Below are positions 3,748-20,513 of a stretch of 20,513 nt of DNA, piece by piece. How positions within the stretch are numbered: the first letter of the stretch is position 1; each line of letters begins with the position of its first letter. The translations under genes and the position numbers were made by a program. Source of the DNA: a virus; IMG/VR virus record IMGVR_UViG_3300042907_000824, positions 1 through 20,513 of that record; one strand, written 5' to 3'. A model generated the notes under the pieces. The model saw only the letters and a program-made list of their open reading frames with translations, made no database searches and was not told where the DNA came from.

Positions 3748-4062
3748 ATGTCGACTTTTAAAAGTAATGCGACCAGGAATTTAGGAGCTACTCCTACCAC
3801 TTTATACACGGCTATAAGTGGTACAGTAGTGATCGGTCTAAACGCCGCAAACGTTTACGCCACCGAATTACCTATTGACGTCTGGCATAAAAGAGGTTCT
3901 AATAACACCTATATCCTTAAGCAGTTCCGGGTAGGTCCAGGTCAAACTGAAGAGCTCATGAAAGGCAATAAGATAGTGTTAGAAACAGGGGATGAATTAG
4001 TTGCGTCCACTGCCATCAGTAATGGGTTTGATATCCTAGTTTCAGTGCTGGAAGGGGTCTAG
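3748..4062 (+). CDS. Small beta-rich virion protein
   Basis: The protein has 104 residues. After a short lead it reads as a compact beta sandwich: TTLYTAISGTVVIGLNAANV, LPIDVWHKRG, TYILKQFRVGPGQTEELM, GNKIVLETGDELVAS and FDILVSVLEGV. There are no cysteines, signal peptide or membrane segment. The architecture resembles small virion proteins encoded near baseplate or fibre genes of T4-like cyanophages. The intergenic gap to the previous gene is 2 nt and to the next gene 1 nt, so it is part of the same translational unit. Function is not known beyond likely virion association. Confidence 0.7.
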   Translation: MSTFKSNATRNLGATPTTLYTAISGTVVIGLNAANVYATELPIDVWHKRGSNNTYILKQFRVGPGQTEELMKGNKIVLETGDELVASTAISNGFDILVSVLEGV

Positions 4063-4063
4063 T

Positions 4064-4297
4064 ATGAGTGGCTTTTACGAAGGTACAGATCTAGCAAATA
4101 AAACCTTTTATGGTTTTAGGTTATTTCAAAATACCGGTGATTTAAACGTAGATGTTATTAGCGGTAATGGCGTAGTTTCACTCCCTGAGCCAGGATATAT
4201 CATTGGACCTAATGAGTATCAGGCATGGGTTTGGTCAACAGGTACCTATCAGTTCCAATGGGGAGCTAAGGGTCATTTAGAGATGGTGTTCATATGA
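4064..4297 (+). CDS. Small aromatic-rich hypothetical virion protein
   Basis: The protein has 77 residues and is rich in Tyr, Phe, Trp and Gly (FYEGTDLANKTFYGFRLFQN, YQAWVWSTGTYQFQWG). It is probably a small all-beta protein without membrane segments. It sits between the small beta sandwich at 3748 and the giant fibre at 4294, overlapping the latter by four bases (ATGA at 4294-4297). I recognise comparable sequences in T4-like cyanophage fibre regions, but no activity is known. Its position suggests a fibre attachment or accessory protein, which is inference only. Confidence 0.65.
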   Translation: MSGFYEGTDLANKTFYGFRLFQNTGDLNVDVISGNGVVSLPEPGYIIGPNEYQAWVWSTGTYQFQWGAKGHLEMVFI

Positions 4298-7200
4298 CGA
4301 CAATTGTAGATTTAGGTAAGTTAAGATTTTATTGGGCAGGCAACTATGATGAAGCTACCCAATATGAATTAAACGACGTAGTTCGATACGGCGGTAACGT
4401 TTATGCGTATATTAACGTAGTACGGACTATCGGTACTATTCCTACGGATGTTACGTACTGGGCCCTCATGGTTGAGGGCATTAACTTTATTGGTGAATGG
4501 ACTGACGCAACGCAGTACTTCATTGGCGATGCAGTTGCCTACGGTTCTACCGTATATGTAGCTCTAGTCGATAACATCGATGTTCAACCTGATACTAACC
4601 CGTCTACTTGGTCACAATTCGTTGAAGCTATTCAATGGGAAGGTGATTATGTAGCTACTACAACATACCAACCAAACGACGTAGTTAAATACGGCGGTAG
4701 CGCATTTATTGCAATTCAAACAACGAACAACAACGACCCAACAAACACTACATACTGGCAACAGTTTGTAACTGGTATTTCACCAGAAGGTGTCTATAAC
4801 AATACAACAGCCTATGTGCCAAATGATATTGTTGCTTATGGCGCAAATCTATACATAGCTACCGCAAACACGACAGGTAATCTACCTATCAATACCGGTT
4901 TCTGGCAACCGTTCATCTCCGCATTTGAAAATCGCGGTGCATGGGCAACAAGTACCTTATATTATGAAAATGATTTAGTTCAGTACGGTGCATATACCTA
5001 TGCATGTCAGATACAAAACACATCAGGTGTATTCGCAACTGACCTAGCTGCAGGCAAGTGGTCAGTATTTGTAACCGGTCTACGTCAACGCGGTGAATGG
5101 GTTACAGGTACACAGTATCTACCCTATGATATCGTTACTTATGGCGGCAATACATATTCATGCCTGATATTAAACAACTCAGGTACCTTCGCGACTGACT
5201 TAGCCGCTGGTAAATGGGAAATCTTTAACGGCGGTATTCGTTGGAGAGGCGCATGGACACCTACAACACAGTATTTAGTTAACGATTTAGTGCGAAACGT
5301 AGGCTCAACCTACATTGCAACGGAAGACTTTACTTCAGGATCTAACTTTAGCGTTGAATACGATGCAGGTAAGTGGGTGTTCTTTGCTCAAGGTGGCGCG
5401 GATATTCTTCCGGTAATTACACCAGGCTTAGAAGGCTACTCTTTATCAGTAGCTTCTAACGGTATTGATATTGAGTGGATAAATGCCTCTGGTTCAGATA
5501 ACGTCTACTATGTATCTGTAGATGGCGACGATGCCAACCCAGGTACAAGCTTGGCCTTACCTTTCGCAACTAGTCAAGCTGCCGTTGCGGCCGCTTCAGC
5601 AGGTAATGCCACAATCTTTGTTAAAACGGGTACATACAGTGAAGCATTGCTTCCGATTGTAGTTCCTCCAAACACAGCGATTGTAGGGGATAATCAACGT
5701 ACAGTTAACGTTCAACCTGCTGCTGGTTTGGCTGCAGATGGCATAACACCTAATGCTCAGTCAACAATGTGGGCAATGTCAAACGGTTCTATATTGAACA
5801 AAATGACATTTAAAGGTATGACGGGTTGGGTTCCAGGATCTGTCCCTGCGGATATTACAACCTCTGTAATTAAGGGTGTTGTAGTAGGTTTCAATCCAGC
5901 TTCTCCAGTCACATCTAAATCACCATATGTTCTAGAATGTGCTGCTATATGTACAGGTGCTGTTGGCGCATACGTAGATGGTGACGTACATGCAACAGGC
6001 TTTAAGTCCATGTTGTTCCACGGGTACACCATAATCAGTGATAACGGTATAGGTTACTATGTTAGAGACCAAGGTAAAGCTGAGATTGTTTCTTGCTTTA
6101 CTTACTATTGCTATTTTGGCTATGCCACAACTGGCGGTGGTTTTATCCGCGCATTGAATGGTAATAACAGCTACGGTACATGGGGCGTACAGTCCTCTGG
6201 TTATGACGTAGATGAAGTTCCCGTAACAGGTACGTTATATGGTATTCAACTTCAAACTACTACAGACCCTATTAATATAGGCTTTGCACCGGGCAGTACG
6301 GTAACAGGTGAAACGTCAGGTGCGGTTGCTACTGTAACTAACTTACAGGCTTCAGCCGGTAAGGTATACGTTAATTATGGTTCAGGATCTGTTCCTTTTG
6401 TTAATGGTGAAACTATCAATGATGGAGTAGGCAACACTTTAGTTATAGCAGGCGGAGGCGTAACCGGTCAAAAAGGCATGTTATTAGTTGTAGATAACCT
6501 TACTGCAGAGCCTTTGCAAGGTGCAAGTATTCAATTAACAGGTGATCCATACTCTTACGTTATTCAGTCTGTATCAGGTACGTATGTGGATACGTCAAGC
6601 GTGATGTTTATTGCATTGGCCCAAGAAAAACCAGATCCATCTCCGGATAACACAGGCATATCGATCCGCTATCTATATTCACAAATTCGCTTAACAGGGC
6701 ATGACTTTTTGGATATTGGTACTGGTGGTGTTGTCACTACTAACTACCCAAATAATCCACTACAGCCTCCTGCACAAGGCAATGAAGTTGACGAGATATT
6801 CCCAGGCCGTGTTTACTATGTGTCTACTGACCAAAACGGTAATTTCCGTGTAGGTGAGTATTTCACTGTAGACCAAGGTACGGGTACTGCAACCTTAAAT
6901 GCCAACGCGTTTAACTTGTCTGGTTTGACATCATTACGTTTAGGATCTATTGGTGCGCAATTAGGTGAGCAGATTAATGAGTTCTCATCTGATGCTACTT
7001 TAGGCGGAGATAATCCAACTAACGTAGCTGTTCCAACTGAGTATGCGGTTAAAACGTATGTTGATACACGTGTACCACAGGCTCTACCTACCTCTGTAGG
7101 AAACGAAGGGGAGGTACTTACAAGTAATGGTTCGACAGTTTCATGGGCTTTAGCGATTGCTGATCAAACAGATAATTCCGGTAAATACTTAACCACTAAC

Positions 7201-7521
7201 GGTACTACAACCTCATGGAATACAATATCAGTTACACCACAGTGGACTACTAAATCAGCAAACTACACTGCGGTGGCTGGAGATAACTTGTTCTGTAATA
7301 CATCATCAGGTATATTTACAATAACTTTGCCTGCCACACCAGCAGTCAACAGCAGCGTTAGAATTGTAGATTTAGCAGGTACGTTTAACTCCAGGCCCTT
7401 AAACGTTGCTAGAAATGGGGAATTACTGATGGGTTTAACTCAAGATATGAGTCTAAACGTGGTTAATGCGTCTATTACTTTAGTATACTCTGGCTCTACA
7501 TACGGCTGGCGCTTGGTCTAA
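4294..7521 (+). CDS. Large mosaic tail-fibre/tailspike-like protein
   Basis: The protein has 1075 residues. Residues 11-368 are seven tandem ~50-residue repeats of the type W(t)xxTxYxxND(v/l)VxYG..YxA......W, resembling small carbohydrate-binding modules. Residues about 405-700 start with YYVSVDGDDANPGTS, a DUF1565-like opening of a right-handed beta-helix, followed by many short beta repeats. Around 840-910, DQNGNFRVGEYF, LNANAFNLSGL and PTEYAVKTYVDT match a block known from T4-like cyanophage virion proteins. The last ~90 residues (SANYTAVAGDN..., SGSTYGWRLV) form a common fibre C-terminal domain. The likely role is host-surface polysaccharide recognition, perhaps with depolymerase-like fold features; no catalytic residues can be assigned from sequence alone. 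The gene overlaps its predecessor by four bases. Confidence 0.85.
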   Translation: MTTIVDLGKLRFYWAGNYDEATQYELNDVVRYGGNVYAYINVVRTIGTIPTDVTYWALMVEGINFIGEWTDATQYFIGDAVAYGSTVYVALVDNIDVQPDTNPSTWSQFVEAIQWEGDYVATTTYQPNDVVKYGGSAFIAIQTTNNNDPTNTTYWQQFVTGISPEGVYNNTTAYVPNDIVAYGANLYIATANTTGNLPINTGFWQPFISAFENRGAWATSTLYYENDLVQYGAYTYACQIQNTSGVFATDLAAGKWSVFVTGLRQRGEWVTGTQYLPYDIVTYGGNTYSCLILNNSGTFATDLAAGKWEIFNGGIRWRGAWTPTTQYLVNDLVRNVGSTYIATEDFTSGSNFSVEYDAGKWVFFAQGGADILPVITPGLEGYSLSVASNGIDIEWINASGSDNVYYVSVDGDDANPGTSLALPFATSQAAVAAASAGNATIFVKTGTYSEALLPIVVPPNTAIVGDNQRTVNVQPAAGLAADGITPNAQSTMWAMSNGSILNKMTFKGMTGWVPGSVPADITTSVIKGVVVGFNPASPVTSKSPYVLECAAICTGAVGAYVDGDVHATGFKSMLFHGYTIISDNGIGYYVRDQGKAEIVSCFTYYCYFGYATTGGGFIRALNGNNSYGTWGVQSSGYDVDEVPVTGTLYGIQLQTTTDPINIGFAPGSTVTGETSGAVATVTNLQASAGKVYVNYGSGSVPFVNGETINDGVGNTLVIAGGGVTGQKGMLLVVDNLTAEPLQGASIQLTGDPYSYVIQSVSGTYVDTSSVMFIALAQEKPDPSPDNTGISIRYLYSQIRLTGHDFLDIGTGGVVTTNYPNNPLQPPAQGNEVDEIFPGRVYYVSTDQNGNFRVGEYFTVDQGTGTATLNANAFNLSGLTSLRLGSIGAQLGEQINEFSSDATLGGDNPTNVAVPTEYAVKTYVDTRVPQALPTSVGNEGEVLTSNGSTVSWALAIADQTDNSGKYLTTNGTTTSWNTISVTPQWTTKSANYTAVAGDNLFCNTSSGIFTITLPATPAVNSSVRIVDLAGTFNSRPLNVARNGELLMGLTQDMSLNVVNASITLVYSGSTYGWRLV
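4324..5397 (+). repeat. Seven ~50-codon tandem repeats within the large fibre gene
   Basis: Seven consecutive units of 49-53 codons encode residues 11-368. Each contains a Trp/Tyr near its start, a T.Y..ND.V.YG core (YELNDVVRYGG, YQPNDVVKYGG, YVPNDIVAYGA, YLPYDIVTYGG and similar) and a closing W. Units 5 and 6 are the closest pair and share FATDLAAGKW. The DNA copies have diverged, so this is an old internal duplication rather than a recent expansion. The pattern resembles carbohydrate-binding modules of chitinase-type enzymes. Confidence 0.85.
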
Positions 7522-7538: not shown

Positions 7539-8915
7539 ATGTCAAACTTAGCACAATTCGTAGGGTATAGAGAAATACCGTTAGTACCAACATACAGCGA
7601 GCCAGCGTTTTGTACTTCTGGGTACGGACAACAGGCAGTTATGACGTACAACCAGGCATCGCAAATGATGTCCTTTCCTCAGTGGCCTGGCGGAGAAATG
7701 GAAACTTCTTCTTATTTCAATCAAAACTGGAATAGCCAACCCTCTTCAAACAATGGTTGGCAATATGCAGGCACTACTTTAACCGGTATGCACGGGCATA
7801 TGTTTACAAATGCTACAATTAGTTCAGAAACTTTGACAGCCTCTTCTATGTCTATAACTGGGGTGAATCAACCTAGCGGATCCATATATGGTTGTTTAAA
7901 TAGTCAATCAACTGGAATTTGGGTTAATAAAACAAAGCGGGATAATTTATGTATCCAGCGGGCTAATAACGCTTCGGACTACAGTTCATATATAAGCACA
8001 ACCCAGATTTCAACTGTTGGATATGGAGCTTTTTTTACGCCAATATCGTCTACCAGAGATTTTAGTGGGTACGGAAATGGCCCTACAAATGGATATAACA
8101 CCACAAGATCTTATGGTTGTGTGGGGTACAACGAAACTACAAAAATGTGGGTTATTGCGGCAAATGCTGCAAACGGGGCGGGGGCAACTATAAATGTTTA
8201 TAAAAACATTAACCCACCTACTTTAGCTAATACAAACGACCAGACATTTTGGAATCAATTTAATCACAGCTCTAAAATTACTATCACGTTTACAACGCCA
8301 AGTGTTACAGCAACACATGATTACCAGCATTATAAATTAATTCCTTTGGATAACGGGGATATTGCCCTGGTATGGAAGCAAGAAGGAACTTCTATCCGTT
8401 ATTTTATGTTTGTAGGCAATGCTGGAGTTAACTCTACGTCATGGACATTTTCTGGAACGGCCTTACTTACTATAAACACAACCACTTCATATCATGACAG
8501 TGACTGGGTTAACCACGATTTCATGCCAGCAATGATGTCTCCAGACGGTAAATACGTATTTGTTTGGACTCAATATTATTATTATCAAACTGGTATATGC
8601 GGTATGGCAATAAGAGTATCTGATGGTGCTGTCAGGTATATTAACTTTGCAGATTCTAGCGATTCTTACGCCCCTGTTTTTTTACGAAAAAATACTTTGT
8701 GCCTTGGGTATAGCGTTAATGCGGACAGTGGACGTGGTCAATCTTTGTATCATTATGATCTTGATAATATGTTTGTACGAGTTGCTACAAACTACGGAAA
8801 CATAACTAACTATAAAGTAGAAGCTAACATTGAGTCGCAATACACATCTACATGCTACCCAATGATTTGGCAACAAACAAACTATCTACCTAACTTTATC
8901 CGTGGCGTTTTTTAA
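7539..8915 (+). CDS. Fibre-region protein, paralogue A of a tandem pair
   Basis: The protein has 458 residues, is rich in Ser, Thr, Asn and Tyr, and has no recognised domain. It shares its whole length with the next gene: an MSNL start, EPAFCT, SGWQYAG(T) like block, HGH, GIWVNKTKRDNLC, GYNETTKMWV, QFNHSSKIT, IPLDNG, GVNSTSWT, a DGKYV(F/V)V block with TQYYYY, IRVSDG, and an STCYPMIW...RGVF ending. The alternating beta pattern would suit a beta-propeller or a beta-rich fibre tip. Its place between the giant fibre and the bilin cassette suggests a receptor-binding or virion-surface role, which is inference. The ATG follows a moderate AAGG-type ribosome site. Confidence 0.8.
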   Translation: MSNLAQFVGYREIPLVPTYSEPAFCTSGYGQQAVMTYNQASQMMSFPQWPGGEMETSSYFNQNWNSQPSSNNGWQYAGTTLTGMHGHMFTNATISSETLTASSMSITGVNQPSGSIYGCLNSQSTGIWVNKTKRDNLCIQRANNASDYSSYISTTQISTVGYGAFFTPISSTRDFSGYGNGPTNGYNTTRSYGCVGYNETTKMWVIAANAANGAGATINVYKNINPPTLANTNDQTFWNQFNHSSKITITFTTPSVTATHDYQHYKLIPLDNGDIALVWKQEGTSIRYFMFVGNAGVNSTSWTFSGTALLTINTTTSYHDSDWVNHDFMPAMMSPDGKYVFVWTQYYYYQTGICGMAIRVSDGAVRYINFADSSDSYAPVFLRKNTLCLGYSVNADSGRGQSLYHYDLDNMFVRVATNYGNITNYKVEANIESQYTSTCYPMIWQQTNYLPNFIRGVF

Positions 8916-8923
8916 GGAAAATT

Positions 8924-10273
8924 ATGTCTAATTTAATTACTTTTGCGGGTGCAAACTATAACCCACCGCTTATCCCTGCCGCCTGCGAAGCAGCTTTTTG
9001 TACAGCCTCTACATCGTCAAATATATTTATCTGGAACCATAGCAAACAACTTATGGGTAGGGTTTCTGCAGCAAGCGGGGAAATGGCATCCTCAGGAGTA
9101 TGGAATAGCAGTTGGGCTAGTACACCCTCTTCAAGCAGTGGTTGGCAATATGCAGGTACTTCTCAAGCAGGCCCACATGGCCACCATTATCTAAACATGA
9201 GTGTTTCTGCTGATACGGCATTTAAAGCTACCTCATACTATACTCAAAACTACCAATATTCCACAAACTATTTAATGGGTGCAATTAATAGCCGCGCCAC
9301 TGGAATCTGGGTTAATAAAACTAAACGAGATAATCTATGCTTACAGCGTGTTAATAACCAAAACACTTATCTGTACCGTACTCAAATTTCTTCTTTAGGG
9401 TCGGGAGCTTTATTAGCCCCTTTTACGTCTACGGGGGATATGACTGGTGACACCACTGCAGGAACTGCAAATGGGTACAACACATTACAGACTCAAGGTC
9501 TAGTAGGGTACAACGAAACTACAAAAATGTGGGTGGTAGGTCAACAAGTATCTGGTGCTTCGGTACAGGTATTTGTATATAAAAATATTTCTGCGCCATC
9601 TCTTACATCCGATTCAACATACTGGAGCCAGTTTAACCACAGTGCAAAAATAACAGTTAACTTTAGTCTGCAATCCCCTAGTGACTCTTATGACTATTCT
9701 TCGTGGAAAATTATTCCGTTAGACAACGGTAATATTGTTATCATTTCAAAATCTGCAGGTAGTTTTATAAACTATACACTTTTAACTGGTAACGATGGGG
9801 TTAATTCGACATCATGGACTGCATCTTCCGTTCAAAATCTTGGTATTACAACTTCATACAACAACACGGCTTGGCAAGATAACTTACCAGCTTTCGTAAC
9901 GTATGACGGGAAATATGTAGTCGTTTATACTCAATATTACTATTATTTCTCCGGCTGGGTGGGCTATATTATTAGAGTGTCAGATGGGAAACGTTTAACC
10001 ATTGCACATAATGATACGACATACTCCTATAACTCGGTTATGATAGGAGATAATAAGATGATGATAAGTTACGGAACAAACTCTGATGGTGGATCAGGTC
10101 AATCTATTTTTGAGTACGATATTGGCTATTTAATGGACAGATACGCTACTGGAACATCTGTTGTATCTTTCTATACCCAGACACAAATTGATAACCCATC
10201 TTCAAGTACTTGTTACCCCATGATCTGGACTATGCCGTCACCCGTACCAACATATAATAGAGGAGTATTTTAA
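8924..10273 (+). CDS. Fibre-region protein, paralogue B of a tandem pair
   Basis: The protein has 449 residues and is a full-length paralogue of the preceding gene, 8 nt downstream of it. It has the same landmarks in the same order: AAFCT near the N-terminus, SGWQYAGTSQAGPHGHH, GIWVNKTKRDNLCLQRVNN, GYNETTKMWVVG, QFNHSAKITVNF, IPLDNGNIV, GVNSTSWTAS, YDGKYVVVYTQYYYY, IRVSDGK and STCYPMIW...RGVF. The variable stretches between these blocks have diverged strongly, as expected for surface loops under receptor selection. No catalytic motif is visible. AAGGAAA just upstream of the ATG can serve as a ribosome site. Its stop overlaps the start of the next gene (TAATG). Confidence 0.8.
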   Translation: MSNLITFAGANYNPPLIPAACEAAFCTASTSSNIFIWNHSKQLMGRVSAASGEMASSGVWNSSWASTPSSSSGWQYAGTSQAGPHGHHYLNMSVSADTAFKATSYYTQNYQYSTNYLMGAINSRATGIWVNKTKRDNLCLQRVNNQNTYLYRTQISSLGSGALLAPFTSTGDMTGDTTAGTANGYNTLQTQGLVGYNETTKMWVVGQQVSGASVQVFVYKNISAPSLTSDSTYWSQFNHSAKITVNFSLQSPSDSYDYSSWKIIPLDNGNIVIISKSAGSFINYTLLTGNDGVNSTSWTASSVQNLGITTSYNNTAWQDNLPAFVTYDGKYVVVYTQYYYYFSGWVGYIIRVSDGKRLTIAHNDTTYSYNSVMIGDNKMMISYGTNSDGGSGQSIFEYDIGYLMDRYATGTSVVSFYTQTQIDNPSSSTCYPMIWTMPSPVPTYNRGVF

Positions 10274-10503
10274 TGGCTACAAAACTTAACTTTACATTTA
10301 ACGGTTTAGCAGAAATTGTTGAAGACGGTGAATACAGCGTAAAAATTACGTCTAAAATTCCACATAGATTTTCTTTAGTGGATGGAAAAGTTGTTGACAA
10401 ATATGATGGAATTTCAGACGCAGATGTAGTTAAAGCGGATTACGCTGCTGCAGTTGCTTTGGCTACAGAACAAAACGTAGAACCTCCACCACAGCCTTTC
10501 TAA
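10273..10503 (+). CDS. Small hypothetical protein between fibre and bilin genes
   Basis: The protein has 76 residues. Its first half is beta-like (LNFTFNGLAEIVEDGEYSVKIT, HRFSLVDGKVV), then a short helix (DADVVKADYAAAVALATEQ) and a proline-rich end. It overlaps both neighbours through TAATG junctions at 10271-10275 and 10501-10505, so it is translationally coupled to the fibre paralogue upstream and the heme oxygenase downstream. I recognise no family. By position it could be a small fibre accessory or assembly protein, but nothing in the sequence proves that. Confidence 0.7.
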   Translation: MATKLNFTFNGLAEIVEDGEYSVKITSKIPHRFSLVDGKVVDKYDGISDADVVKADYAAAVALATEQNVEPPPQPF

Positions 10504-11036
10504 TGGCACTAAGAGACTTAATTAAAGCAAACCACGACAAAGCGGAATCCCACCGCTTTGTTCGTATTCTATTGTCTGGCGACATAACAAAAGAAGTTTA
10601 TGTTGAGTTGCTGTTCAATCAATTGCTTTGCTACTCAAAATTAGAGTCATTAGCTAAGCACTTTGGATTGCTAGAAGGCTTTGAGGAAATTTGTCGTGCT
10701 GAACATATCGAAACGGATCTCATAGAACTAGGTGGTACCTCAAAAGTTTACCCATCGACTATGGCTTATTTAGAGTATTTAAACTCAGTAGGCCCTAAGA
10801 TATTGCTAGCACACATATACATTCGTCACTTCGGTGACTTATACGGCGGTCAAATAATTAAGAAAGCTGTGCCAGGTAGTGGTAAAATGTACGAGTTTGA
10901 AGACCGCAATGGATTGATTGCTAAAGTACGTGAACGTCTATCAGATGAATTAGGCGAAGAAGCTAATAGAGCTATCGAATTTAACTTGCAACTTTTTGAA
11001 GAGATTGCAAATGAGCACAATATTCCAACAACTTGA
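10503..11036 (+). CDS. hemO: Heme oxygenase (biliverdin-forming)
   Basis: The protein has 177 residues, all-helical and shorter than typical heme oxygenases (about 200-240). Heme oxygenase opens heme with O2 and reductant to biliverdin IX-alpha, CO and Fe2+. Two family signatures are clear: an N-terminal helix KANHDKAESHRF whose His11 aligns with the proximal heme ligand (His25 of human HO-1), and the distal-helix block LLAHIYIRHFGDLYGGQIIKK, in which GDLYGGQ (111-117) matches GDLSGGQ and Asp112 matches the oxygen-activating Asp140 of HO-1. The C-terminal NLQLFEEI also matches the family. The start overlaps the previous stop (TAATG). The 3' end overlaps the bilin reductase, so both products are probably made together. 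The electron donor, presumably host ferredoxin, is not encoded here. Confidence 0.88.
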   Translation: MALRDLIKANHDKAESHRFVRILLSGDITKEVYVELLFNQLLCYSKLESLAKHFGLLEGFEEICRAEHIETDLIELGGTSKVYPSTMAYLEYLNSVGPKILLAHIYIRHFGDLYGGQIIKKAVPGSGKMYEFEDRNGLIAKVRERLSDELGEEANRAIEFNLQLFEEIANEHNIPTT

Positions 11037-11715
11037 TGGCCTTGCAGATAAACTAAAAGCAGTCCTATCACAGTATGATGCAGTAGACGAAGGCCACAAC
11101 TTTGAGTGGCCTAATTACGTTTATAAGAGCGCAAAATTCCGCAGGGCACATTTAGACATCATTGATGTAAGGGAGTCTAAAAAGCTCTACATGATGCACC
11201 TATGTGTATTTCCTCACATCAACGATCCATCTCCAATATACGGCTTTGACATTGTAGCTGGCCCTAACAAGGTGACAGGTGCGTTCCACGACTTTAGCCC
11301 CGTATCAGAAGGTCATCCTATGGGTGAATGGTTCAAGAAGCGTGTAGCATTATACAAGTGGAAACGCGAACGCGAACTGCCAGAGTGGGCCAGAAAGATA
11401 TTTAGTCCAAGCATTATTACAGCTACGAACATCCAAACACAAGACGAACTAGAGCGCATGTGTGATTTAGTGTTTGCCAACTTGATTTACTATTTGAATA
11501 ACATTGGCGAAACAACGGCTAACGATTATACTAGTGCCCATAACTGGTACTGTTTCAATCAAAAACAAAACCCACACACTCCTCGTGTTATGGAAGCATT
11601 AGGGCTAGATGTAGAGAACGTTAAGATGTTTATTAAAGACTGCTTATTCCCTGAACTAAAAGGTGCTAAGTCCATTTGGACCGAGGTAATGGCCGCTTAC
11701 GGAGCGGGTAAATAG
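11011..11715 (+). CDS. pcyX: Ferredoxin-dependent bilin reductase, PcyA/PcyX type
   Basis: From the ATG at 11011 the protein has 234 residues. A TTG at 10996 would add five residues, but GAAGAG six bases before the ATG favours 11011. The enzyme reduces biliverdin using ferredoxin. Family marks are FRRAHLDI, MMHLCVFP, YGFDIVAGPNKVTGAFHDFSP and RELPEWA, aligning with PcyA. His63 matches PcyA His88 and Asp80 matches Asp105, with identical 17-residue spacing. Asp49 takes the place of catalytic Glu76, and the Asp49-His63 stretch is two residues longer than in PcyA. This closeness to PcyA, not PebS, together with an adjacent heme oxygenase in a phage, fits PcyX, described from uncultured viruses as making phycoerythrobilin in a four-electron reduction. 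PcyA-like activity (phycocyanobilin) remains possible. It overlaps the heme oxygenase by 26 nt. Confidence 0.85.
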   Translation: MSTIFQQLDGLADKLKAVLSQYDAVDEGHNFEWPNYVYKSAKFRRAHLDIIDVRESKKLYMMHLCVFPHINDPSPIYGFDIVAGPNKVTGAFHDFSPVSEGHPMGEWFKKRVALYKWKRERELPEWARKIFSPSIITATNIQTQDELERMCDLVFANLIYYLNNIGETTANDYTSAHNWYCFNQKQNPHTPRVMEALGLDVENVKMFIKDCLFPELKGAKSIWTEVMAAYGAGK

Positions 11716-12665
11716 TGTTTGGATTCGCGTCCTTTGCTCAGTTACCTTTTGCCTCATTACCGGCAACGGGTATTCCTGCCCAAGCGGCTTTAACTGGGCA
11801 ACAGCTAAATGCGTTTGTTTCTTCTCTTGCTATCAGAGGCGAAGGATTCACTAATTTAACGGGTCAACAGCTAAATGCCTACACAGGCAATATGCGTGCC
11901 AAGTTTGGCTACTTCTTGACCAGTCAGGTCTTATCTGGGACCGTTTCAAATCTATCGGTTAAGGGTAAGGCCTCAACCGTCCTTTTAAATCAAGTCCTAC
12001 AGAGCTATTTAGAAGACCTTGACACTGTGGCTGGCGCCTACGCCGTCGTACTGGCTCAAGTTCTTAATATTTCGGTAGAAGATGTTGCAACAATCGCAAA
12101 AGCAACTACTACGGTCTCTGGACAAGAATTAAATTCATTTATAAATGATGTTGCTGCTTCTGCTCAGGCTACTGGAACTATTTCAGGTATTGCGGCTGAG
12201 TTTACGCAGGAAGATTTAAAAATTGTCATCGGTTATTTATTGACTGGCATTACAATGTCGTCTGCGGTACAATCTCTAAACGTCTCTGGTAAAGCCACTA
12301 CACAAGTTACAGGCTCTGTACTTACCAGCACGCTCAATAGTGTATTTGGTAAGGCCAATGCAAGAGGCTTCACCACATCTCAACTATTAAATATTTACGA
12401 AGGTAATATTAGTGCGTCAGGTAAAGCATCTGTTCGCTTAGACAGCCTAGAAGCTGTTATTATCATCGATAACGTATTAGTATGGGGCGTAGTGCCCGAT
12501 GACCAAAACCCAGATTGGGAAGTGGTCGATGACAGTCAAACCGAGGTTTGGGCTTCTGTAAATTCTGAGCAAACGACTACATGGATTGTTCCTGTAGTAG
12601 ATCCTACTGATTGGGTTATAGTAGACGATTCAGAGGATGAGGACTGGACAGAAGTAATACATTAA
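11715..12665 (+). CDS. Virion protein with ~22-residue repeats and acidic Trp-rich tail
   Basis: The protein has 316 residues and starts with GTG overlapping the pcyX stop (TAGTG at 11713-11717). Residues about 27-241 contain a ~22-residue periodic repeat around a (T/S)(G/S)Q(x)L(N/x) motif: TGQQLNA at 27 and 49, TSQVLSG at 69, LNQVLQS at 91, LAQVLNI at 113, SGQELNS at 135, TGSVLTS at 199 and TSQLLNI at 221. The final ~65 residues are acidic and Trp-rich (LVWGVVPDDQNPDWEVVDD, DWVIVDDSEDEDWTEV). I recognise this repeat-plus-WxxV/D-tail layout from virion proteins of T4-like cyanophages and other marine phages. It probably forms an elongated beta structure in a fibre or baseplate. There is no enzymatic signature. 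Confidence 0.75.
   Translation: MFGFASFAQLPFASLPATGIPAQAALTGQQLNAFVSSLAIRGEGFTNLTGQQLNAYTGNMRAKFGYFLTSQVLSGTVSNLSVKGKASTVLLNQVLQSYLEDLDTVAGAYAVVLAQVLNISVEDVATIAKATTTVSGQELNSFINDVAASAQATGTISGIAAEFTQEDLKIVIGYLLTGITMSSAVQSLNVSGKATTQVTGSVLTSTLNSVFGKANARGFTTSQLLNIYEGNISASGKASVRLDSLEAVIIIDNVLVWGVVPDDQNPDWEVVDDSQTEVWASVNSEQTTTWIVPVVDPTDWVIVDDSEDEDWTEVIH
11793..12437 (+). repeat. ~66-bp-period coding repeat
   Basis: This segment encodes about ten units of a ~22-residue repeat in the 316-residue virion protein. The first two units are also similar as DNA (caacagctaaatgc occurs at both), while later units have diverged. The regular 22-residue spacing of the Q-L-N/x motif (27, 49, 69, 91, 113, 135, then 199 and 221) suggests a solenoid-like or triple-beta fold built by duplication. 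Confidence 0.7.
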
Positions 12666-12684: not shown

Positions 12685-13356
12685 ATGCCTTCAAATTATA
12701 GTCAGTTGAAGATTCAGTTAATGGCCACAGGGGAAAACTCTGGTACGTGGGGTGATGTCACCAACACGAACCTGGGTACCGCCATTGAGGACGCCATTGC
12801 AGGCTATGGCACCGCTGAATTTGCGGCAAATGCTGAGTTAGAACTCCCTTGGTTAGATACCAACGGCTATCAAGTAGCCCGTAATCTGGTGCTAAACGTA
12901 ACGTCTTCTGTTACTCTAGTAGGTACTCAAAACCTTGTTGTGCCTACGTTTGAGAAGCAATATCTTATCTACAATAACACTACTGGCGGACAAAGCATAA
13001 CGGTTAAAACCGCTGCTGGCACAGGTGTTGTAGTACCAAATGGCAGTAAAGTGTCTTTGTATGTGGATGGCACTGACGTCATCCCTGCAATAAATTCACT
13101 GCCTTTATCTGCTACTACCACGGTAAAACTACCTACTACAGACGGTAGTAACGGGTCCTTATTGTCTACAAACGGAACGGGTGTGCTGAGCTGGGTCCAA
13201 GTTGCCCCAGGCGTTAACAACATTGGCTACCAATTCCACAGAACATCAGAAATGACAACTACACGTTGCAGCTTTCTGACTCTGGCAAACACATATTCCA
13301 CCCTGCTGCGGATACAACAGCTAGAACCTGGACAATCCCCGCCAATTCAAGCGTAG
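12685..13356 (+). CDS. Tail/fibre-region protein, N-terminal part before a frameshift
   Basis: The reading frame gives 223 residues from an ATG with AAGGGAG at 12672-12678. Residues 1-~181 match a widespread phage virion protein: MPSNYSQLKIQLMATGENSGTWG, TNTNLGTAIEDAI, then beta-rich repeats and NGTGVLSWVQVAPGVNNIGYQ. After about residue 181 the frame loses family character (FHRTSEMTTTRCSFLTLANTY...) and stops at 13356. The expected continuation (IPQNIRNDNYTLQLSDSGKHIFHP...) is present in the -1 frame from about 13233. The native product would therefore be about 288 residues ending at 13553, and this frame is truncated with an unrelated ~42-residue tail. Either the genome has a real one-base loss, or the sequence contains an indel error. 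Confidence 0.8.
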   Translation: MPSNYSQLKIQLMATGENSGTWGDVTNTNLGTAIEDAIAGYGTAEFAANAELELPWLDTNGYQVARNLVLNVTSSVTLVGTQNLVVPTFEKQYLIYNNTTGGQSITVKTAAGTGVVVPNGSKVSLYVDGTDVIPAINSLPLSATTTVKLPTTDGSNGSLLSTNGTGVLSWVQVAPGVNNIGYQFHRTSEMTTTRCSFLTLANTYSTLLRIQQLEPGQSPPIQA

Positions 13357-13553
13357 CCTTTCCAATAGGCACCGCCATTGGCTTTATAACGGATGCAGGT
13401 GCAGGCGCTATTACTATTGCTATTAACTCCGATACGTTAATTGCGGCAGGCACAGGCTTGACAGGTAGCCGGACTTTAGCTACAAATAGCATTGCAACAG
13501 CAATCAAGATTACCAGCACTAGCTGGATTATCAGTGGGGTTCTATTAACATGA
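13266..13553 (+). CDS. C-terminal part of the same protein, in the -1 frame
   Basis: The frame is open from 13218 to the TGA at 13551-13553; the coordinates given start at its first plausible start codon (TTG at 13266). It encodes QLSDSGKHIFHPAADTTART WTIPANSSVAFPIGTAIGF and an ending SWIISGVLLT. I know this as the conserved C-terminal domain that normally follows directly on the N-terminal part encoded at 12685. No ribosome site precedes it, so it is most likely the detached second half of one gene, not an independent gene. Its stop overlaps the next start (ATGA at 13550), the junction expected for the true end of the full-length gene. Confidence 0.6.
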   Translation: MQLSDSGKHIFHPAADTTARTWTIPANSSVAFPIGTAIGFITDAGAGAITIAINSDTLIAAGTGLTGSRTLATNSIATAIKITSTSWIISGVLLT

Positions 13554-18989: not shown

Positions 18990-20513
18990 ATGCCATTATT
19001 ACGTTTAGCTTTAAAGCCTGGTATTGACAAACAAAACACCGAATACGGTGCCGAAGGCGGCTGGACGGATTGTGACTACGTGCGTTTCCAATATGGCCTG
19101 CCAGAGAAGACTGGTGGCTGGATTCATTTTAATGATGAGGCCCAATACCTAATTGGTATGCCTAGTGAAGTATTTACATGGAACGCCTTGAACGGTGTTC
19201 CTTACTCAATTATAGGCACTGACAGGAAGCTATACGCTTTTATTAATAGTAGCTGGGTGGATGTCACCCCTATTCGTTATGTAGATACTTCTGCTTCTTT
19301 TGATACCGTAGACACAAGCAATGTAGTGACTGTAAACAGCATCGTCCATGGCGCAAGTCCCGGCGACTTTGTTACGTTTACAGGTGTTACAGGTAATCCA
19401 GGCGGTATCCCAAATGCCAGTCTTGCTCAAGAATTTGAAATACAAAACGTACTAGGCGATAACGCCTATACTATATTGTCTCCTGTTCCAGCAACTGCTA
19501 CGGTATTGGACGCAGGAAATGCAACAGCCACATATCAAATCAGCGTTGGTTCTGACCTTAGCTACTTTAACTACGGCTGGGGCACAGCAACCTGGGGTCT
19601 TTCTACATGGGGCACGCCCCGCGAATCAGGGACCACTAAAGGCAAGTCTCTCCTATCTCGCGTATGGCAGTTTGACTCGTACGGTGAAAATGTTATCTGT
19701 CAATTAGTAGGTGGCGGAACATACATTTGGGAGATAGCTGGAGGAATCGTATCTAGGGCCCACCAAATTGTAGGCGCACCTACTACTAGTACTTATGCTT
19801 TGATTTCTACTCCTGATCGCCACTTAGTCTGCTTTGGTACAGAGACCGTAATTGGTGACGATACAACACAAGACCCTATGTATGTAAGGTTTTCTAACCA
19901 GGAAGACATCGGCTCTTTTGAGGCTTCTGCCACTAACACGGCAGGGGGTCAACGTCTTAACGATGGTAGTCGGATTATTTCCTCTATTCGTTCACGTGGT
20001 CAAATGCTCATATTCACAGATACTGCCTTACACGGGATGCAGTACATTGGCCCTCCATACACGTTTGGTTTCTCTCAATTAGGTTCTAATTGTGGTTGTA
20101 TCGGACCTCATGCAGCGGTGGACGTAAACGGCGTAGCCATGTGGATGGGCGTTGAGGCATTCTATGTGTTTGATGGTACGGTTAAAAAAATCGCATGTAC
20201 TGTTCAAGACTACATATTTAATGACATTAATCTAATTCAGGCTCAAAAAGTAACGGCAGGCGTAAACTCCCAGTTTAATGAGGTTACATGGTGGTATTGC
20301 TCATTTACTTCTGATTACATTGACAGATACGTATCCTTTAACTATCTTGAAAATACATGGGCTATTGGCACTATGCCTAGAACAGCTTGGGTAGACGTAG
20401 GTACTTACTCAAGGCCCGTGGCCACAGAGTACTTCTACGATAGCGATGCAACGCCTGTTGACCCTATACAAGGGCTAACGGCAGGTAGGTCACTTGTCTA
20501 TACCCAAGAAACA
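18990..20513 (+). CDS. Tail nozzle / tubular protein (partial, runs off the window)
   Basis: The frame is open from the ATG at 18990 for 508 codons to the window edge, with no stop. The start MPLLRLALKPGIDKQNTEYG and the block GGWTDCDYVRFQYGLPEKTGGW match a very common protein of podovirus-like phages that forms the tail nozzle or tubular part (P22 gp10 / T7 gp12-like role). Further on it is beta-rich, with a propeller-like rhythm (WGTATWGLSTWGTPR, TYIWEIAGG, DRHLVCFG, GQMLIFTDTALHGMQYIGPPYTF, VAMWMGVEAFYVFDGTVKKI, NYLENTWAIG). Placement right after the lysis genes, away from the adaptor-like genes at 525-2201, is unusual. The ATG lies one base after the endolysin stop. Confidence 0.8.
   Translation, partial: MPLLRLALKPGIDKQNTEYGAEGGWTDCDYVRFQYGLPEKTGGWIHFNDEAQYLIGMPSEVFTWNALNGVPYSIIGTDRKLYAFINSSWVDVTPIRYVDTSASFDTVDTSNVVTVNSIVHGASPGDFVTFTGVTGNPGGIPNASLAQEFEIQNVLGDNAYTILSPVPATATVLDAGNATATYQISVGSDLSYFNYGWGTATWGLSTWGTPRESGTTKGKSLLSRVWQFDSYGENVICQLVGGGTYIWEIAGGIVSRAHQIVGAPTTSTYALISTPDRHLVCFGTETVIGDDTTQDPMYVRFSNQEDIGSFEASATNTAGGQRLNDGSRIISSIRSRGQMLIFTDTALHGMQYIGPPYTFGFSQLGSNCGCIGPHAAVDVNGVAMWMGVEAFYVFDGTVKKIACTVQDYIFNDINLIQAQKVTAGVNSQFNEVTWWYCSFTSDYIDRYVSFNYLENTWAIGTMPRTAWVDVGTYSRPVATEYFYDSDATPVDPIQGLTAGRSLVYTQET

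Follow-up and report, generated by a model that had tools for sequence, protein, structure and literature searches.

The DNA analyzed here, referred to as the window, comprises the whole 20,513 bases of an IMG/VR virus record (IMGVR_UViG_3300042907_000824); positions 8198 to 28714 of a longer record of 49,248 bases (IMGVR_UViG_3300042384_000415) match it at 99.97% identity. Two overlapping genes, predicted to encode a heme oxygenase (HO) and a PcyX-type ferredoxin-dependent bilin reductase (FDBR), lie downstream of a tail fibre gene. The following features were assigned:

1548 to 2201, + strand: SU10-type adaptor protein (PF24175, E 7.3e-27), backbone marker and control query
3748 to 4062, + strand: small ORF of 104 aa ahead of the fibre, member of the shared block (family in 25 of 29 fibre loci)
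4064 to 4297, + strand: small ORF of 77 aa immediately 5' of the fibre, member of the shared block (family in 27 of 29 fibre loci)
4294 to 7521, + strand: tail fibre of 1075 aa, cassette-linked family (phrog_9851 tail fiber, E 2.8e-216)
7539 to 8915, + strand: 458-aa protein between fibre and HO, clusters with the following protein as a paralogue
8924 to 10273, + strand: 449-aa protein, paralogue of the 458-aa protein, in one cluster with it
10273 to 10503, + strand: 76-aa ORF, stop overlaps the HO start (family in 5 of 29 fibre loci)
10503 to 11036, + strand: HO of 177 aa (PF01126, fold model, invariant residues)
11011 to 11715, + strand: PcyX-type FDBR of 234 aa (PF05996, 5owg match, tree, model)
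11715 to 12665, + strand: 316-aa ORF, starts on the final base of the PcyX stop (family in 14 of 97 loci)
18990 to 20513, + strand: virion structural/stabilisation protein (phrog_3287), cut by the window end, backbone marker and control query

The reading frames of HO and reductase overlap by 26 bases when the reductase start is taken as ATG 11011; the frame from TTG 10996 is longer than needed. Furthermore, the stop codon of the 76-aa ORF and the ATG of HO share one base, as do the stop codon of the reductase and the GTG of the 316-aa ORF, and these one-base overlaps on both sides of the pair suggest coupled translation. Both genes were thus found intact and overlapping where the original prediction had placed them. 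The neighbourhood consists of structural genes on the same strand, with adaptor proteins 5' and a phage lysozyme and the stabilisation protein farther 3'; Pfam matches, PHROG matches and neighbour comparison agreed on the late or tail-region setting that had been proposed. Promoter-like sites were not in excess (14 as compared to 25.6 in shuffled sequences).

Pfam matches were absent for the ORFs of 104, 77 and 449 aa, and both Pfam and PHROG matches for those of 458, 76 and 316 aa. The 316-aa ORF, used as query in the viral scan, yielded 15 relatives, all weak. Neither of the 458/449-aa paralogues (7539 to 10273) was found in any other phage among the 27 locus entries compared. At about position 13230 the window is without four bases that the near-identical record G001 has, and a single 290-aa ORF of G001 spans the place of two ORFs of the window (12685 to 13553).

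HO matched PF01126 with an E-value of 3.1e-18, and its best solved relatives by sequence were HO-2 and Synechocystis HO-1. An AlphaFold model built from 32 viral HOs had a mean pLDDT of 93.2; its top fold match was HO-1 (1we1; E 5.5e-7, TMq 0.82). The protein carries the marks of the HO-1 type, namely an all-helical fold, His11 and the distal motif GDLYGGQ (GDxxGGQ) with Asp112, so that the proximal histidine and the GDLxGGQ motif predicted earlier were both present. His11, Asp112, Gly115 and Gly116 are invariant across the 32 viral HOs. By analogy with His25 and Asp140 of HO-1 we assign heme ligation to His11 and the role of distal acid to Asp112.

The reductase matched PF05996 (E 2.8e-19, with the sequence taken from 11014) and contains the PcyA-like motifs YGFDIVAGP and MMHLCVFP noted before. 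A phmmer search against solved structures returned PcyX_EBK42635 (5owg), known from ocean metagenomes, with E 1.2e-59 and PcyA with 1.7e-15. The structural model (pLDDT 89.9) likewise matched 5owg best (E 2.6e-13, 36% identity in the structural alignment), followed by PcyA and then, with weaker E-values, PebB, PebA and PebS. A maximum-likelihood tree was calculated from 81 sequences of an initial 119, after viral rows with 85% or higher identity to a retained row had been taken out. It placed the reductase within a 58-row clade of viral PcyX (100/99) together with 5owg and the enzyme of the pelagimyophage Mosig, and paired it with that of locus L003 (100/99). PcyX_EBK42635 itself, although of the same family and viral clade, is 36% identical to the window reductase and sits next to the Mosig enzyme instead; presumably it, too, has an HO partner. 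The sister of the viral clade is formed by alphaproteobacterial PcyA, from four Roseomonadaceae and one Acetobacteraceae MAG; cyanobacterial and cyanophage PcyA are more distant, and PebA, PebB and PebS stand outside on long branches. The branch of PebS is very long and its exact place unsure, yet it lies off the PcyA/PcyX side of the tree.

Residues of 5owg were counted by hand from its first Met, Asp55 being the Asp of HLD and Asp86 that of GFD. Asp49 of the window reductase aligns with Asp55 (chain position 63), His63 is equivalent to His69 and Asp80 to Asp86, so the Asp/His/Asp set of PcyX_EBK42635 is preserved; all three residues are invariant in 33 viral reductases. Asp occupies the Asp55 place in all 87 viral sequences in which our text pattern was matched, the pattern being unmatched in 9 of 96. 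At the place of PcyA Glu76 the window has Asp, and the six cyanophage PcyA of the alignment have Glu. The reductase is without Glu76 and is placed outside all PcyA sampled, whether from cyanobacteria, cyanophages or alphaproteobacteria; it did not group with PebS of P-SSM2 either. Judged by best structural match, clade membership and the Asp at the Asp55 place, the reductase is PcyX, as the original prediction had claimed in setting it apart from PebS; the branching with host PcyA that might have overturned this assignment did not appear. The placement agrees with the "AX" lineage described in PMC10151467. Because Asp49, His63 and Asp80 are invariant and cyanophage PcyA has Glu, phycoerythrobilin (PEB) is the expected product of HO and PcyX acting together.

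Relatives of the reductase were numerous, with 27 in a first viral scan and at least 584 in a profile scan. From these, 97 viral loci were compiled; eight second-scan copies of contigs already included were removed and near-copies were otherwise still counted. Of these loci, 96 had a called PcyX and 92 a called HO, and four of the five PcyX loci without HO start at a contig edge, the exception being L120. HO lies 5' of PcyX on the same strand in all 91 loci with both ORFs called, directly adjacent in 83 and with one ORF between them in eight; in the T4-like loci L010 and L017 an extra 286-aa ORF occupies this place. Divergence of HO and PcyX was correlated (Mantel r 0.65 for 80 loci; the highest of 1000 shuffles gave 0.11). 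Compared with L003, pN and pS were 0.115 and 0.757 for HO and 0.143 and 0.824 for PcyX, pS being saturated; both genes are under purifying selection. The many viral relatives and the low pN as compared to pS argue that the pair is not a product of chance.

Among GenBank phages the window reductase matched 21 records, 20 of cyanophages and that of the Pelagibacter phage Mosig, which is the only PcyX-type record in this collection. A scan of genome contigs with PcyX patterns gave no relatives. With PcyA/PcyX patterns 52 loci were obtained, three of which are PcyX (L126, L127, L128) on phage-like contigs in MAGs labeled Halobacteroidaceae, Neomarinimicrobiota and Rickettsiales, respectively; these are probably phage contigs binned into MAGs. 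Read by eye, PcyX in these three loci stands beside HO and ClpS-like and Hsp20-like genes, with DnaK in L126 and a nitrilase-like gene between HO and PcyX in L127 and L128. Another locus, L177 on a 188-kb contig (NZ_RMVE01000006.1) of a Nonlabens xiamenensis assembly, encodes a reductase falling among cyanophage PcyA; both the contig size and this placement point to cyanophage DNA in a bacterial assembly. A plasmid search gave no match, and a PebS beside the HO of virus AG-345-F15 was looked for and not found.

No near DNA match to the window phage was found among GenBank phages. Four of its replication proteins are 74-82% identical to those of Phage DSL-LC04 (OR003939), an uncultured lake phage with Pseudomonadota as predicted host (PMC10611076). 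Identity of the DNA polymerase is 79% to DSL-LC04, 53% to HTVC023P and 47% to HTVC027P, and that of the stabilisation protein 59-61% to DSL-LC04 and 40% to the two Pelagibacter phages HTVC023P and HTVC027P, which are cultured pelagiphages and the next relatives after DSL-LC04. The backbone of the window phage is podovirus-like and related to lake phage DSL-LC04, a member of the same phage family, and to the HTVC023P pelagiphages. The DSL-LC04 genome has other fibre and lectin genes in the slot that the window fills with fibre and cassette, and the complete genomes of DSL-LC04, HTVC023P and HTVC027P did not appear in the set of phage records matched by FDBR or HO.

The G+C content of the longer record is 0.454 and does not imply a low-G+C SAR11 host; tRNAs suitable for host prediction were absent from the window. 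Reading the ORF list of the 49-kb record by eye, we recognized no photosynthesis genes, and a phytochrome PHY domain was found in none of 40 related phage records, most of them fragments. Of the strains tested with Mosig, HTCC1062 alone was lysed (PMC9004378). Given Mosig, the polymerase relatives, the lack of recognizable photosynthesis genes and the PHY domain result, a heterotrophic pseudomonadote is the most probable host, rather than a cyanobacterium. In the earlier assignment of such cassettes to uncultured, non-cyanophage viruses, "uncultured" fails in one case, since Mosig is a cultured SAR11 phage that has the pair.

The tail fibre proved to be tied to the cassette. It belongs to a cluster present in 15 of the 27 locus entries compared, the window and the long record both counted. 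The viral collection was scanned with the fibre protein alone and the best 80 loci were examined. Among these, 28 fibre relatives had at least 8 kb after the fibre gene (own record L192 excluded), and 27 carried HO and PcyX, in 26 of the 28 both downstream of the fibre and on the same strand; in L199 PcyX precedes the fibre, apart from HO, and L249 has the fibre and neither gene. At a limit of 5 kb both genes were present in 35 of 38 fibre loci among the same 80, L270 having the fibre without the cassette and L228 HO only. When fibres were clustered at 90% identity, the cassette accompanied 19 of 20 clusters including the own record and 18 of the 19 others. Starting from the reductase, 50 PcyX loci extend 5.9 kb or more upstream; 36 of them show a fibre match (in L012 and L080 to its N-terminal part only) and 14 show none, so that the tie is not absolute. 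Fibre and PcyX divergence showed a moderate correlation (r 0.38, n = 30), reached by 0 of 2000 shuffles.

Control queries behaved differently. The sister branch of the fibre, found in cyanophages and retrieved with the S-CAM1 fibre as query, contained neither HO nor FDBR in any of 44 loci (18 clusters) offering 8 kb or more. The adaptor gene sits 2 kb 5' of the fibre; of its relatives at 75-100% identity, own record left out, 17 extend 9.5 kb or more downstream, and HO, PcyX and fibre were each absent from all 17. At 5.5 kb the fibre was present in 1 of 22 adaptor relatives: L489 (adaptor identity 78%) has the linked fibre, and its contig stops about 7 kb past the adaptor gene, before the place of the cassette. 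As a third control, 28 of 80 loci with stabilisation-protein relatives were searched as whole records; FDBR was found in one and the fibre in none, in a search that had no positive record for the fibre. This control is weak, as upstream sequence extends to 9 kb in only 8 of the 28 records and to 11.5 kb, the distance of the fibre in the window, in 4; we rely on the adaptor control in its place. FDBR was absent from the eight records reaching 9 kb, and the single record with FDBR (G060) ends 1.3 kb before HO.

Since the linked fibre relatives differ in this way from a cassette-free sister branch and from backbone relatives, fibre and cassette are read as one block, which seems to travel between phages. 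Outside the block, the 29 fibre loci fall into six backbone groups if two shared families are required and into three if one is; T4-like neck genes in L227 and L236 mark two of the groups. With two shared families one loose group holds 20 of the 29 loci and the window stands alone; independent transfers are therefore fewer than loci. The G+C content of HO-PcyX is 0.411 as compared to 0.462 for the phage outside the window, which fits an acquired block but does not prove it. A limited search found no literature on a linkage of fibre, HO and PcyX.

The best explanation, in which we have good confidence, is that HO and PcyX form an auxiliary phage cassette, the last part of a block that appears to move from one backbone to another. 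The block would consist of two small ORFs, the tail fibre, variable genes (tail-chaperone, tail or 2OG-Fe(II)-oxygenase genes), HO and PcyX, and the DSL-LC04-like phage of the window would most likely have acquired it by transfer as a unit. Alternatively, the linkage may reflect common descent, or a habit of auxiliary genes to settle near fibres, with no connection to host or function. In many phages the fibre region is a variable island, and 20 of the 29 fibre loci belong to one loose backbone group. However, both fibre and cassette are missing from the 17 informative backbone relatives of the window, the block is common to T4-like and DSL-LC04-like phages, the cassette is missing from all 44 sister-branch loci, and fibre and PcyX diverge in a correlated manner. 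We therefore regard this alternative as rather unlikely, though it retains appreciable weight.

Cassettes of this kind are already in print, and that of the window is a new member and an ordinary PcyX cassette. The closest cultured counterpart is found in Mosig (EXVC030M; HO QOI69018, FDBR QOI69017), in which HO and PcyX are adjacent and overlapping as in the window and a related fibre lies about 6 kb upstream of HO; the reductases are 46.6% identical. Unlike the window phage, Mosig is T4-like, has a 141-kb genome and an annotated ferrochelatase, and carries several 2OG-Fe(II) oxygenases between its fibre and HO, where none was recognized in the window. Marine viral HemO and PcyX had already been related to Mosig, and gp13-bearing contigs placed with pelagimyophages; the available part of that report does not mention a DSL-LC04-type backbone (PMC11480375). 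The cassette of the window thus sits in a phage type for which we have seen no earlier report. A freshwater phage, CB_2, not thought to infect cyanobacteria, also has HO beside a reductase of the PcyA/PcyX branch, in a cassette of hemO, pcyA/X and alaS (PMC11480375). The 49-kb record is without an alaS match (TIGR01821). Matches occurred in 2 of 40 related records tested, mostly fragments: G038 and G046, the records of L088 and L118, encode a 5-aminolevulinate synthase far above the family cut-off, as in valaS phages.

As for function, HO would open heme using oxygen and electrons, yielding biliverdin IXalpha, Fe2+ and CO, and PcyX would reduce biliverdin with four electrons from reduced host ferredoxin via 15,16-dihydrobiliverdin to PEB. 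Late in infection, host heme may thus be dismantled and its iron freed, with PcyX drawing off biliverdin. This purpose, with PcyX as biliverdin sink and a linkage to the fibre through shared hosts, is put forward tentatively; we favor it since no bilin acceptor was recognized and cyanobacteria are improbable hosts. An iron-supply role has been considered earlier (PMC11480375). A shared-host island would account best for the linkage: the fibre would fix the host and the cassette would pay in that host only. The conserved active site of PcyX exceeds what release of iron needs, which speaks against iron as the only purpose.

It also speaks for use of the bilin itself, PEB or an intermediate serving as ligand or chromophore of a host photoreceptor, a globin or another protein. 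The invariance of the PcyX active-site residues in 33 viral sequences suggests that the reduced product matters, and bilin-binding globins occur in heterotrophic bacteria (PMC10151467). On the other hand, the PHY domain was missing from all 40 related phage records, and no conserved acceptor was recognized beside the cassette in the phage loci compared. Use of the bilin is on balance unlikely.

A further reading, which we consider improbable, makes fibre and cassette one functional mobile unit across phage families, with the heme-to-bilin pathway working for the tail: HO and PcyX would supply a bilin ligand, supply Fe2+ for 2OG oxygenases that modify the fibre, or remove receptor heme. Three specific candidates were set aside. 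Covalent attachment of bilin to the fibre was considered for Cys 549, 601 and 606, conserved in 100, 99 and 88% of 81 sequences; they are not specific to the branch, for when these three positions were compared in three cyanophage fibres lacking the cassette, 8 of the 9 places held Cys as well, and so they are no sign of a bilin site. An iron-bearing fibre was not supported, 83 of 85 fibre sequences having no HxH motif. In the genes behind the fibre HxH occurred 13 times where 8.1 were expected in 21 selected cassette loci, no clear excess, and 6 times where 8.4 were expected in 17 selected loci of the cyanophage branch. The 2OG-Fe(II) oxygenases were likewise rejected as reason for the linkage: several relatives have them between fibre and HO, but none was recognized there in the window, and cyanophage fibres have them nearby too.

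The reductase could still function as PcyA and make phycocyanobilin (PCB). Its clade is sister to PcyA in the tree, and the CB_2 enzyme, first named PcyA/X, produced PCB. That enzyme is regarded as a true PcyA, probably owing to its lack of the PcyX-specific Asp55 (PMC11480375); the window reductase, by contrast, has Asp49 at this place and groups within PcyX alongside the characterized enzyme, which makes PCB as its product very improbable. PEB is also the product of cyanophage PebS (PMC11480375), and the activity of PcyX was below that of PebS in Synechococcus (PMC13197396). Cyanophage PebS (P-SSM2) and PcyA are phage-borne FDBRs like the window reductase but lie outside the PcyX clade and serve phages of cyanobacterial hosts. 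A light-harvesting pathway in a cyanobacterial host, as proposed for the HO and bilin reductases of cyanophages, in which HO, PcyA and PebS do occur, is scarcely credible here, as the known or predicted hosts of the backbone relatives are Pseudomonadota, the sole PcyX-type GenBank phage record is a Pelagibacter phage, and none of the 44 loci in the cyanophage branch of this fibre has the cassette.

Why viruses of heterotrophs should make a light-harvesting pigment is a puzzle, and the co-occurrence has been called "still enigmatic" (PMC11480375). The near-constant tie of the cassette to one fibre subfamily, which neither the sister branch nor the backbone relatives show, offers a handle on the purpose of the pathway. 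If the pathway pays in one host group and the fibre is the marker of that group, the receptor of this fibre would point to the host; alternatively, the tie may mean that the pathway serves the tail. Both the host-marker and the tail-service reading can be tested on the cultured phage Mosig.
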